Assembly: GCA_030747595.1 (NCBI GenBank)
Contig: JASLKK010000015.1
Location: 1-41,765 of the forward strand
DNA from: Acidimicrobiales bacterium
GTDB taxonomy: Bacteria > Actinomycetota > Acidimicrobiia > Acidimicrobiales > MedAcidi-G1
Length of the DNA: 41,765 bases
Reading direction: 5' to 3'
Both the position numbers and the translations under genes were made by a program. The notes below the pieces were generated by a model, which made no database searches, was not told the origin of the DNA, and saw only the letters and a program-made list of their open reading frames with translations. Shown one piece after another: positions 29,537 to 31,831 of the stretch; position 1 is the stretch's first letter, and the number at the start of each line of letters is the position of its first letter.

Positions 29537-29998
29537 CTACTCCTCCTCGTCGGTCGCTTCTGACCCGGGGTTCTCGGCGGCGTCCCGAAGGGCTTTTTCG
29601 ACGGACACGTAGGCCAGTCGGATCTGGTGGAGGGCGTCGCGCATCGTGGCCTCGGCTTCCCCGAGACGACCGGGCAGCTTCTCGACCACGGCTCCCAGGG
29701 CGTCGATGGCCACGGAAGCCTCGCTCATGTTGGGCGGCTGCTGGGAGAGGTGGATGGCCGCCAACTCGTAGAACCCCATGAGGTGGTTGGCCACCACCAC
29801 GGCGGCGGGCGCCGAGGCGATCTGTTCCTGGACTTGTGCCATCTCCCGGGCCATGTCCTCGGCCTGCTGGCGTTCCTCCGGGCTCAGGGCCTCGTCGGAC
29901 AAGTCGTGGGTTGGCGCGGTGCCGCCAGCGGCGTCTGTCCCTGAAACTTCCTCGGGTTCGACGGGGTGCTCTCCACCGGGGGTCCAGAGGCTGCTCAT
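29537..29998 (-). CDS. DUF1844-like conserved protein
   Basis: 153 residues from the ATG at 29998, with AGGAG 8 nt upstream. The N-terminal 70 residues are acidic, Pro-rich and Gln-rich (EERQQAEDMAREMAQVQEQ). The C-terminal helical part ANHLMGFYELAAIHL, then SEASVAIDALGAVVEKLPGRLGEAE, then LHQIRLAYVSVEKAL has the helix pattern of DUF1844. DUF1844 genes sit next to infC in other actinobacteria, as I recall, which fits this position. Function unknown; a ribosome-linked role is only suggested by context. It ends in an acidic tail (EATDEEE). Confidence 0.75.
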   Translation of the reverse strand: MSSLWTPGGEHPVEPEEVSGTDAAGGTAPTHDLSDEALSPEERQQAEDMAREMAQVQEQIASAPAAVVVANHLMGFYELAAIHLSQQPPNMSEASVAIDALGAVVEKLPGRLGEAEATMRDALHQIRLAYVSVEKALRDAAENPGSEATDEEE

Positions 29999-30076
29999 CG
30001 TGTTCGCTCCTGTTGTTCGTGGTGGCCTGCCCGGCGGGCGGCACTCTCGTCGGGTGCTGGTCGACCCCGGGAGCGG

Positions 30077-30083
30077 TAGCCTA
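30077..30083. promoter_or_regulatory. Symmetric bidirectional -10 element (DUF1844-like / infC)
   Basis: TAGCCTA holds TAGCCT reading right (30077-30082) and TAGGCT reading left (30083-30078). Rightward transcripts would start near 30089 with an infC leader of about 290 nt; leftward transcripts near 30071 with a 70-nt leader containing AGGAG. Confidence 0.45.
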
Positions 30084-30240
30084 CGGCTCACAACTAGATG
30101 GAAAGCGGGGTTCACCCCCCACCCGGCACGCGTTCAGCGGGCCCGGGTCCTCATCTCGTCTGATCGACGGGTCGTCCAGCGTCTTGAAGGGCAATGTCCT
30201 GAAAGGCAGTGCCTTCAGTGGCTAGACGGCCGTCGACCTT

Positions 30241-30268
30241 GGCGGGTGTCGGCTTTCCGGCGCCCGTC
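30241..30268 (+). promoter_or_regulatory. Attenuator-like hairpin in the infC leader
   Basis: GGCGGGTGTCGG (30241-30252) pairs with CCGGCGCCCGTC (30257-30268) through 12 bp including G-U pairs, loop CTTT, followed by the T-rich stretch GTTTCGGCTTTTCC. infC-rpmI-rplT leaders are L20-regulated in several bacteria; whether this hairpin is an L20 site, a terminator or neither is open. A second smaller hairpin (CTGA-AGGC/GCCTTCAG) lies near 30199-30219. The remainder of the 30000-30357 leader shows no gene. Confidence 0.4.
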
Positions 30269-30357
30269 GTTTCGGCTTTTCCGGGGTCTTTACCCTGTGT
30301 ACCAGTCGGTTCCGTCGGACGCCACCGCCCAAACCCCCACGAGGAGCGAGAGCCAAC

Positions 30358-30381
30358 GTGACGCACAGGAGTGACGACTAA
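30358..30381 (+). CDS. Leader mini-ORF ending on the infC start codon, 7 aa
   Basis: GTG at 30358 with GAGGAG (30341-30346) 11 nt upstream reads VTHRSDD and stops at TAA 30379-30381, whose last base is the first base of the infC ATA start (TAATA). The infC Shine-Dalgarno AGGAG (30367-30371) lies inside it, so its translation should affect infC initiation. Confidence 0.4.
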   Translation: MTHRSDD

Positions 30382-31118
30382 TAGCAACGCCGACGAATCA
30401 GGAACCGCGGATCAATGACCGCATCCGGGCCCGACAGGTCCGGCTGGTCTCGCCCGACGGTGAACAGATGGGGATTCAGACCCTGTCTGACGCACTGGAC
30501 GCGGCCCAGGAGATCGGGTTGGACCTGGTGGAGGTGGCCGACAAGGCCGACCCACCGGTTTGCCGGATCATGGACTACGGGAAGTTCAAGTACGAACAGT
30601 CCCAGCGGGCCAAGGAATCGCGCAAGAAGGCCACCCATGTCCTGGTCAAGGAGATGAAGTACCGACCCAAGATCGGTCCTGGTGACTTTGAGACCAAGAC
30701 CCGCAAGGTTGAGGCTTTTCTGAGCGAGGGTTGCAAGGTCAAGGTCACCATCATGTTCCGTGGCCGGGAGATGCAGCACCCGGAGCTCGGTCGCCGCATC
30801 CTCGATCGGGTGGCCGAGGTCGTGTCCCATGTGGGACGAGTCGAGCTGTACCCGAAACAGGATGGCCGAAACATGATCATGGTTCTGGTGCCCGGTCAGG
30901 CCACGCGCAAACAGCGCGAGGCTGCCGCCGATCGCCAGGTCGTCGACACTGAGTCCGATTCCGGCGAAGCCGCGGAGGCTGCTGATCTGGAGGCGACCGA
31001 CACCGCCGAGACCGTCGCTCCCGCGACCGACACGACCGCACCGGAGGCCACTCAGCCCGAGACGCCTTCCGAGGCGGCCGTCGCCGAGGACCAGCCCACC
31101 GAACCGCCGTCCGCCTGA
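30381..31118 (+). CDS. infC: Translation initiation factor IF-3, apparent AUA start
   Basis: Binds the 30S subunit, prevents premature 50S joining and rejects non-canonical start codons. 245 residues. The conserved N-terminus [22 protein letters not shown] lies before the first ATG (30468), and an in-frame stop sits at 30372. The only usable start with a good binding site is ATA at 30381, 9 nt after AGGAG (30367-30371); ATC at 30411 after AGGAA is a weaker alternative that would cut off the conserved PR. The N domain is about 10-85 ([13 protein letters not shown]); the C domain follows ([29 protein letters not shown]). The last 70 residues are an Ala/Glu/Thr-rich acidic tail as in Streptomyces. 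Confidence 0.93.
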
Positions 31119-31159
31119 CCGGCCGACGAACTACTAGACCCGAAAACGGAGCAGAAACC

Positions 31160-31354
31160 ATGCCCAAGATGAAGACCCACCGCGGCGCTGCGAAGCGCTT
31201 CAAGGTGACCGGCAGCGGGCGCCTCAAGCGTCGCAACGCCAACCTCAGCCACATTCTCGAGAAGAAGTCCCCGAAGCGAAAGCGTCGGCTGGCTCGCCAG
31301 AGCGACGTGGACCCGGCGAATGTGCCGGCTGTCCGCAAGCAACTCGGCATCTGA
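31160..31354 (+). CDS. rpmI: 50S ribosomal protein L35
   Basis: 64 residues, very basic: [20 protein letters not shown] at the start, [16 protein letters not shown] in the middle and [10 protein letters not shown] at the end, all L35 signatures. GGAG lies 7 nt upstream of the ATG. It is the second gene of the conserved infC-rpmI-rplT operon. The 120-bp gap to rplT contains the direct repeat GGTACCGAC twice (31396, 31411) but no gene. Confidence 0.97.
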
Positions 31355-31474
31355 CCGAGCCCCACGGGGCCTTGGAGCCCCATCGAGACAACACCGGTAC
31401 CGACTGAACGGGTACCGACCGAACAGCGATCGTCCCTGCCGCCGCCGGTGGGGACCCGAACACAGGAGAGCGTG

Positions 31475-31831
31475 ATGGCCAGGGTCAAGCGAGCCGTCCA
31501 CAGCAAGAAGAAGCACAAGGCAGTCCTCGAGCAGGCGAAGGGCTACTACGGCGACAAGAGCCGTACTTTCCGCGCTGCCAACGAGCAGGTGATGCATTCC
31601 GGGAACTACGCCTTCCGCGACCGTCGGGCGCGTAAGGGACAGTTCCGTCGGCTCTGGATCCAGCGGATCAACGCCGCCTGCCGTCAGCACGGGACCAACT
31701 ACAGCGTCTTCATCGCCGGTCTCAAGCAGGCTGGAATCGAAGTCGACCGAAAGGTGCTGGCCGACCTGGCCGTCAATGACAGTGCGGCGTTCGCCGCCCT
31801 GGTAGAGATGGCCGGCGCCGAAGCGGCCTGA
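31475..31831 (+). CDS. rplT: 50S ribosomal protein L20
   Basis: 118 residues from the ATG at 31475 ([15 protein letters not shown]), with AGGAGAG upstream; the frame is open to 31448 but the preceding nine residues are not L20. [19 protein letters not shown] and [21 protein letters not shown] are diagnostic. L20 also represses this operon in several bacteria by binding its leader. Confidence 0.97.

Follow-up and report, generated by a model that had tools for sequence, protein, structure and literature searches.

A short reading frame ends on the AUA start codon of infC in many Acidimicrobiales and may couple its translation to the level of initiation factor 3

Initiation factor 3 (IF-3) controls its own synthesis through a weak start codon in a textbook autogenous loop that has been studied in E. 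coli. The Acidimicrobiales locus considered here raises the question of where infC, the gene for IF-3, begins, and whether a very short reading frame that ends on this start takes part in its translation. We call the whole stretch of DNA that was analysed (41,765 nucleotides, from a genome of 2.46 Mb in 84 contigs) the window. In it, no ATG, GTG or TTG was found in the infC frame between an in-frame TGA and the codons for the conserved residues R-I-N. A preliminary description of this DNA had named this stop at 30372 and proposed the ATA at 30381, with AGGAG 9 nt upstream, as the best start; it had also reported a small open reading frame (mini-ORF) running from GTG 30358 to TAA 30381, with a GAGGAG of its own, that covers the Shine-Dalgarno (SD) sequence of infC. 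All of these elements are present as described, to the base, and the layout of the locus is as follows.

29537-30019, minus strand: divergently oriented gene next to infC, whose match to DUF1844 falls below threshold (25.9 bits, cut-off 27)
30341-30346, plus strand: GAGGAG, likely SD of the mini-ORF, with an 11-nt spacer to the GTG (duplex energy of this site -7.9 kcal/mol)
30358-30381, plus strand: mini-ORF, GTG ACG CAC AGG AGT GAC GAC TAA, 7 codons, MTHRSDD, read from the sequence
30367-30371, plus strand: AGGAG, SD sequence of infC, inside the mini-ORF, with a 9-nt spacer to ATA (-7.5 kcal/mol)
30372-30374, plus strand: TGA in the infC frame, which rules out starts further upstream in the window
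30379-30381, plus strand: TAA, stop of the mini-ORF, forming TAATA with the infC start; its last A is the first A of ATA
30381-30383, plus strand: ATA, start codon of infC, identified from the matching place in loci of the order
30381-31118, plus strand: infC, encoding IF-3, 245 codons and stop (TIGR00168; Pfam IF3_N and IF3_C)
30382-30384, plus strand: TAG, the next codon of the mini-ORF frame after the TAA (TAATAG), at which the mini-ORF of most relatives stops
31160-31354, plus strand: rpmI, ribosomal protein L35, with an ordinary ATG start (PF01632); control gene
31478-31831, plus strand: rplT, ribosomal protein L20, with an ordinary ATG start (PF00453); control gene

The product of infC is IF-3 (TIGR00168, 214 bits; PF05198 and PF00707). 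The parts from the mini-ORF SD to the end of rplT, including infC, rpmI and rplT, all lie on the plus strand within 30341-31831, and infC appears to head its operon because the DUF1844-like gene upstream is on the minus strand. Past its C-terminal domain the IF-3 of the window carries a tail of about 65 residues (30920-31115) that is rich in Ala, Glu, Thr and Pro and that has a poor match in relatives.

The sample in which we read the infC start consists of 232 Acidimicrobiales genomes, comprising 190 of 193 order matches, 39 more genomes of the window's family and 3 others, and kept 230 loci in 57 families; infC had no match in 5 of 198 order genomes and in 2 of 48 family genomes. Excluded from this set were L269 (genome G201, at a contig edge), the duplicates L300-L303, and L283 (genome G134), in which ATAGCA is present but at -42, beyond the set limit. 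The matched genomes G129, G021, G037 (partial) and G234 (contig edge) lie outside the sample, and within it L001 and L031 are one species. Starts were assigned by a rule that takes ATA, then ATC, then ATT, nearest to -30; L030 alone was set by hand, to GTG.

The start codon of infC is ATA in 187 of the 230 loci, ATC in 40, ATT in 2 and GTG in 1, so that ATA, ATC or ATT occupies the start place in 229 of 230. The preliminary description had suggested comparing relatives for conservation of these three codons and for an ATG at the same place: the codons are conserved, ATG occurs in 0 of 230, and the proposed start stands. Its view of AUA as an uncommon choice does not hold within the order, where AUA is the rule. 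The ATA at the start place is not there as an isoleucine codon, since ATA makes up only 140 of 1830 isoleucine codons inside the infC genes of the order and yet is the start in 187 of 230. Judged by position and conservation, ATA 30381 is likely the best infC start. The in-frame TGA that delimits it in the window is absent from L002, L003 and L011.

Other starts were considered. The ATC at 30411, offered earlier as the alternative, encodes the Ile of the conserved R-I-N and is replaced by a different codon (GTC, GTG and TAC among them) in 82 of 230 loci; we reject it. An in-frame CTG at -57 from R-I-N, after an SD-like stretch and with the frame open into infC, is found in 13 loci of the family; it was set aside because the window has CAA there with TGA in between, and because the GTG 4 bases further on is better spaced. 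A canonical in-frame codon occurs within 15 nt upstream of the assigned start in 12 of 230 loci, 6 of them at -6 (families f45 and f56), which leaves little room for an SD, and one lies between the assigned start and R-I-N in 10 of 230.

Outside the order we read 86 loci (42 plus 44, a few of the latter with Acidimicrobi- titles) with a looser script, and found ATC in 61, ATA in 12, GTA in 3, ATT in 2, TTG in 1, GTG in 1 and nothing readable in 6. As far as these start places tell, infC generally has a weak start and AUA prevails within this order, since the loci outside it mostly have ATC. L333 and L343 (family f77) have GTA at the expected place (GAGGAGTGGTGCACAGTAGC) and are without ATG, GTG, TTG or ATN codons in frame nearby, a possible GUA start. 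L306, L307, L310, L315 and L117 carry GTC there (GGGAGGTGATGCGGGGTCTCG type) and may start with GUC, as has been described for Streptomyces sigR. In the Lentzea loci L094 and L121 the usual ATC place is not ATC, and an in-frame ATG lies upstream after AAAGGACGTGA; this ATG may be the infC start, in which case the lineage may have abandoned the weak start.

We searched for mini-ORFs among reading frames starting 30 to 11 nt upstream of the infC start and recorded where each stops; a wider count also takes stops at -2 and -3. A mini-ORF of 5-9 codons on or against the infC start is the majority state in 27 of 57 families, in which 136 of 141 loci carry it, and in the other 30 families it occurs in 7 of 89 loci, about the chance level. 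The total, with stops at -2 and -3 included, is 143 of 230. Conservation of the small ORF, which the preliminary description had proposed to check, is thus the majority state in many families but does not extend to the 30 others. The usual form is a stop at +1, overlapping the AUA as A-UAG or A-UAA, in 135 loci, most often A-UAG; other stop places are few, with 17 at -9, 22 beyond +20 and at most 6 at each of the rest. The window has the minority variant, in which TAA comes one codon earlier and stops at -2. The observation that a short ORF ends on the infC start was well founded, but the exact TAATA seen in the window is found in only 6 of 230 loci, whereas A-UAG is widespread.

Several comparisons indicate that, at the level of sequence, a short ORF ending on the infC start exceeds chance. 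ORFs with a +1 stop are present in 135 of 187 ATA loci (the window itself is outside the 135); when the 45 nt before the start were dinucleotide-shuffled 200 times, on average 43 loci and never more than 58 had one. Averaged over families, the observed fraction is 0.65 versus at most 0.38 in the shuffles. The signal is confined to one frame: among the 184 loci in which ATA is followed by a purine, start codons from -29 to -11 occur in the UAG frame in 135, in the infC frame in 1 and in the third frame in 6. Among AUC loci, 7 of 40 have a start codon in the matching frame, a contrast with 135 of 184 that is uncorrected for kinship; AUA loci without a mini-ORF number 44 of 187. The signal is also specific to infC: in 85 long loci, short ORFs ending between -6 and +3 are found at 67 of 85 infC starts, compared with 0 of 61 rpmI starts and 3 of 82 rplT starts.

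What is conserved in the mini-ORF is its frame rather than its peptide. Its start moves by threes between families (-14, -17, -20, -23 and -26), and ATG, GTG and TTG replace one another as start codons while the frame onto the stop is kept. In the window's family the start lies at -23 in 42 of 44 loci (41 GTG, 1 ATG), of which 36 stop at A-UAG and 6 at the TAA one codon earlier. Beyond the SD-encoded residues we found no conservation of the peptide, and no clear codon periodicity in the three large groups (20/28/36, 24/29/26 and 26/31/30 changes by codon position); zero changes at start bases 2 and 3 arise by construction because the loci were grouped by having a start. Selection therefore seems, from these patterns, to act on translation itself and on its end point.

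The SD sequences add a further line of evidence, for which we rely on a letter test, the background of the duplex energies (10.11, sd 99.5) being an artefact that was not used. An SD core precedes 131 of 141 mini-ORF starts; among loci that lack a mini-ORF, 51 of 261 pseudo-starts at matched distances have one. Family means of the duplex energy are -8.0 at the mini-ORF site and -3.5 at the pseudo-starts. At the infC site the family means are -6.9 in mini-ORF loci and -9.1 (ATA) and -10.0 (ATC) in the others. A four-letter SD core is missing altogether before infC in 39 of 143 mini-ORF loci versus 0 of 87 others (Fisher p about 2e-9, uncorrected for kinship); these 39 loci, of which L241, L189 and L013 are examples, belong to 13 families and correspond to 16 changes on the IF-3 tree. 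In 35 of the 38 scored, the mini-ORF has an SD core, and the other three are of family f52. Both starts have a core in 96 of 141 mini-ORF loci, and in the window the infC SD is fair (-7.5 kcal/mol) compared with -7.9 kcal/mol for that of the mini-ORF. In the three loci of family f52 (L274, L277 and L326), where the mini-ORF is present and neither start has an SD core, a leaderless transcript from the mini-ORF ATG is a possibility.

The mini-ORF is inherited: on the IF-3 tree the trait requires 15 changes, compared with at least 63 in 50 shuffles, and the loci are therefore not independent. Single loci where the arrangement has changed are informative. L030 (family f28) has GTG as its infC start, with the mini-ORF ATG CGG AAC GAG CGT CGA TAA ending directly before it, which suggests that a mini-ORF is useful even with a canonical start. 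L305, L163, L256 and L260 retain ATA after loss of the mini-ORF, and all four have an SD core at infC, which suggests that the mini-ORF can be lost where infC has an SD. In L154 (family f18), where infC starts with ATC, the upstream ATG is at -16, which is not the frame used by its relatives.

We consider it reasonably probable that the mini-ORF delivers ribosomes to the AUA by termination-reinitiation and that excess IF-3 suppresses this delivery. Initiation on the mini-ORF would occur at a usual start codon (GUG in the window) with an SD of its own; the ribosome would translate a few codons across the infC SD and stop on or beside the AUA, where the same or a neighbouring 30S subunit would reinitiate. 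IF-3 would disfavour the infC AUA, as it has been established to do with non-canonical start codons of E. coli and Streptomyces, and at high IF-3 infC would be translated less while translation of the mini-ORF continues. At the sequence level we observe the AUA start and the position, frame, stop overlap, upstream SD and conservation of the mini-ORF; from these we infer translation of the mini-ORF, a supply of ribosomes from it to infC, and feedback by IF-3. The stop on the start, the two SDs and the confinement of infC SD loss to loci with a mini-ORF are most likely the traces expected of termination-reinitiation. Reinitiation at a codon that IF-3 rejects would be a sensitive read-out of IF-3, because excess IF-3 cuts reinitiation in E. 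coli. The window has kept a fair SD of its own, so its infC could start unaided and its dependence on the mini-ORF may be partial; more generally, the mini-ORF is not essential to an AUA or AUC infC, because 30 of 57 families are without the arrangement.

The preliminary description had left the choice between reinitiation-based and competition-based control. Reinitiation fits better and competition less well, because 39 loci lack the infC SD core while 35 of the 38 scored have one at the mini-ORF. Under competition, the mini-ORF start would act as a decoy that vies with the AUA for the ribosome; high IF-3 would favour GUG or AUG, and infC would be repressed with no reinitiation. The sites do overlap, the infC SD of the window lying inside the mini-ORF, so that a ribosome at the GUG would hide it, and the many loci with SD cores at both starts agree with such a decoy. 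A decoy leaves unexplained, however, why the stop falls on the start (at +1 in 135 loci, at -2 in the window and at few places elsewhere), and would leave infC without a ribosome site in the 39 loci that have no SD core; we regard it as unlikely. The simplest account, an AUA infC with its own SD and IF-3 feedback like that of the E. coli AUU, would make the mini-ORF an unused by-product of the leader. It draws on the 30 families that manage without a mini-ORF, on the infC SD of the window at 9 nt, and on shared ancestry, by which counts of loci overstate independence (15 trait changes on the tree). It does not account for the frame, gene and SD controls and the shuffles, for length steps of three bases with the frame kept, for conservation in 27 families, or for the mini-ORF of L030, which outlives the change of the infC start to GTG. 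We therefore hold this account, too, to be rather unlikely.

Two further explanations would dispense with coupling or with the AUA itself. Control could lie in attenuation or RNA structure (a stalling peptide, a terminator or an L20-type leader), and the setting would suit it: infC leads an operon with rpmI and rplT, the infC-rpmI-rplT operon is controlled by leader RNA elsewhere, and the mini-ORF would be the first ORF after the divergent minus-strand gene. Such elements did not appear in our searches, which gave no Rfam match in the whole window at the gathering score nor in 29950-30450 at E values up to 1, no terminator-like or sigma-70-type promoter site, no unusual RNA fold (z -0.05), no hit in a tRNA search, and no conserved peptide beyond the SD-encoded residues, and we consider this explanation very improbable. 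Alternatively, the AUA might not be a start at all, a -1 frameshift at the UAG joining the mini-ORF to infC and giving IF-3 a short N-terminal extension. In 135 loci the mini-ORF does overlap the infC frame, offset from it by -1, but no slippery heptamer was found by eye before the stop, ATC, ATT and the GTG of L030 occupy the same place, and loci without a mini-ORF retain ATA or ATC with a good SD; a frameshift here would surprise us greatly.

Termination-reinitiation at the AUA could be taken one step further. The AUA may have been kept both as a start that IF-3 rejects and as the end of a mini-ORF that delivers ribosomes, so that IF-3 is read twice, start-codon choice and reinitiation together reporting its level. 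The lineage would then keep AUA because, among the weak AUN codons, only AUA can hold an overlapping stop (A-UAG or A-UAA). The counts of 135 of 184 versus 7 of 40 are in keeping with this, but a co-evolution test of AUA and mini-ORF on independent tree pairs had only 4 and 6 of these and gave no significant signal. We offer this extension tentatively and consider it doubtful.

Parts of the arrangement have precedents. The infC of E. coli starts with AUU and is autoregulated by IF-3, and that of Streptomyces starts with ATC (PMC5472188). The genes described here resemble them as IF-3 genes with a non-canonical AUN start expected to be repressed by IF-3, and differ in their AUA and in the leader mini-ORF that runs onto it, of which the available part of that source makes no mention. 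In Staphylococcus aureus, an AUA start of infC has been seen by retapamulin ribosome profiling, and AUA and AUU starts of three other genes in poor medium reached about 10% of the AUG level (PMC13009471). The AUA start is shared with that species; an overlapping mini-ORF is not described in the portion of the source at hand. Junctions of the overlapping ATGA or TGATG kind are widespread, and they couple translation by termination-reinitiation (PMC6728339). In such coupling, as here, an upstream stop overlaps a downstream start and the downstream SD lies inside the upstream ORF; the present case differs in its AUA start (AUAG or AUAA), in an upstream ORF of 5-9 codons that is not a gene, and in a product that itself judges start codons.

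Excess IF-3 cuts reinitiation in E. coli about threefold without an SD sequence, and hardly affects de novo initiation at canonical starts (PMC2268962). A synthetic 'nonsense' short ORF with an internal ribosome-binding site raises expression of a downstream gene up to twentyfold in E. coli and needs at least 8-10 codons (PMC13255528). Like that construct, the mini-ORFs are short, have no fixed peptide, lie immediately upstream and contain the ribosome-binding site of their target; unlike it, a man-made ORF with an AUG target, they are natural and mostly 6-8 codons long. A search of titles and the openings of abstracts, covering few subscription papers, returned no mini-ORF at infC and no infC starts from Acidimicrobiia. 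The new part is the mini-ORF at infC, the AUA start of this gene being already documented in S. aureus.

The arrangement explains why gene finders likely misplace the infC start in these genomes. Because the mini-ORF is fixed in many families and still missing from others, infC genes that have it can be set against infC genes that do not. Should it work in the way proposed, it would be a natural case of a very short ORF coupled to a non-canonical start, and one bacterial order would have added a second, reinitiation-based arm to the IF-3 loop.
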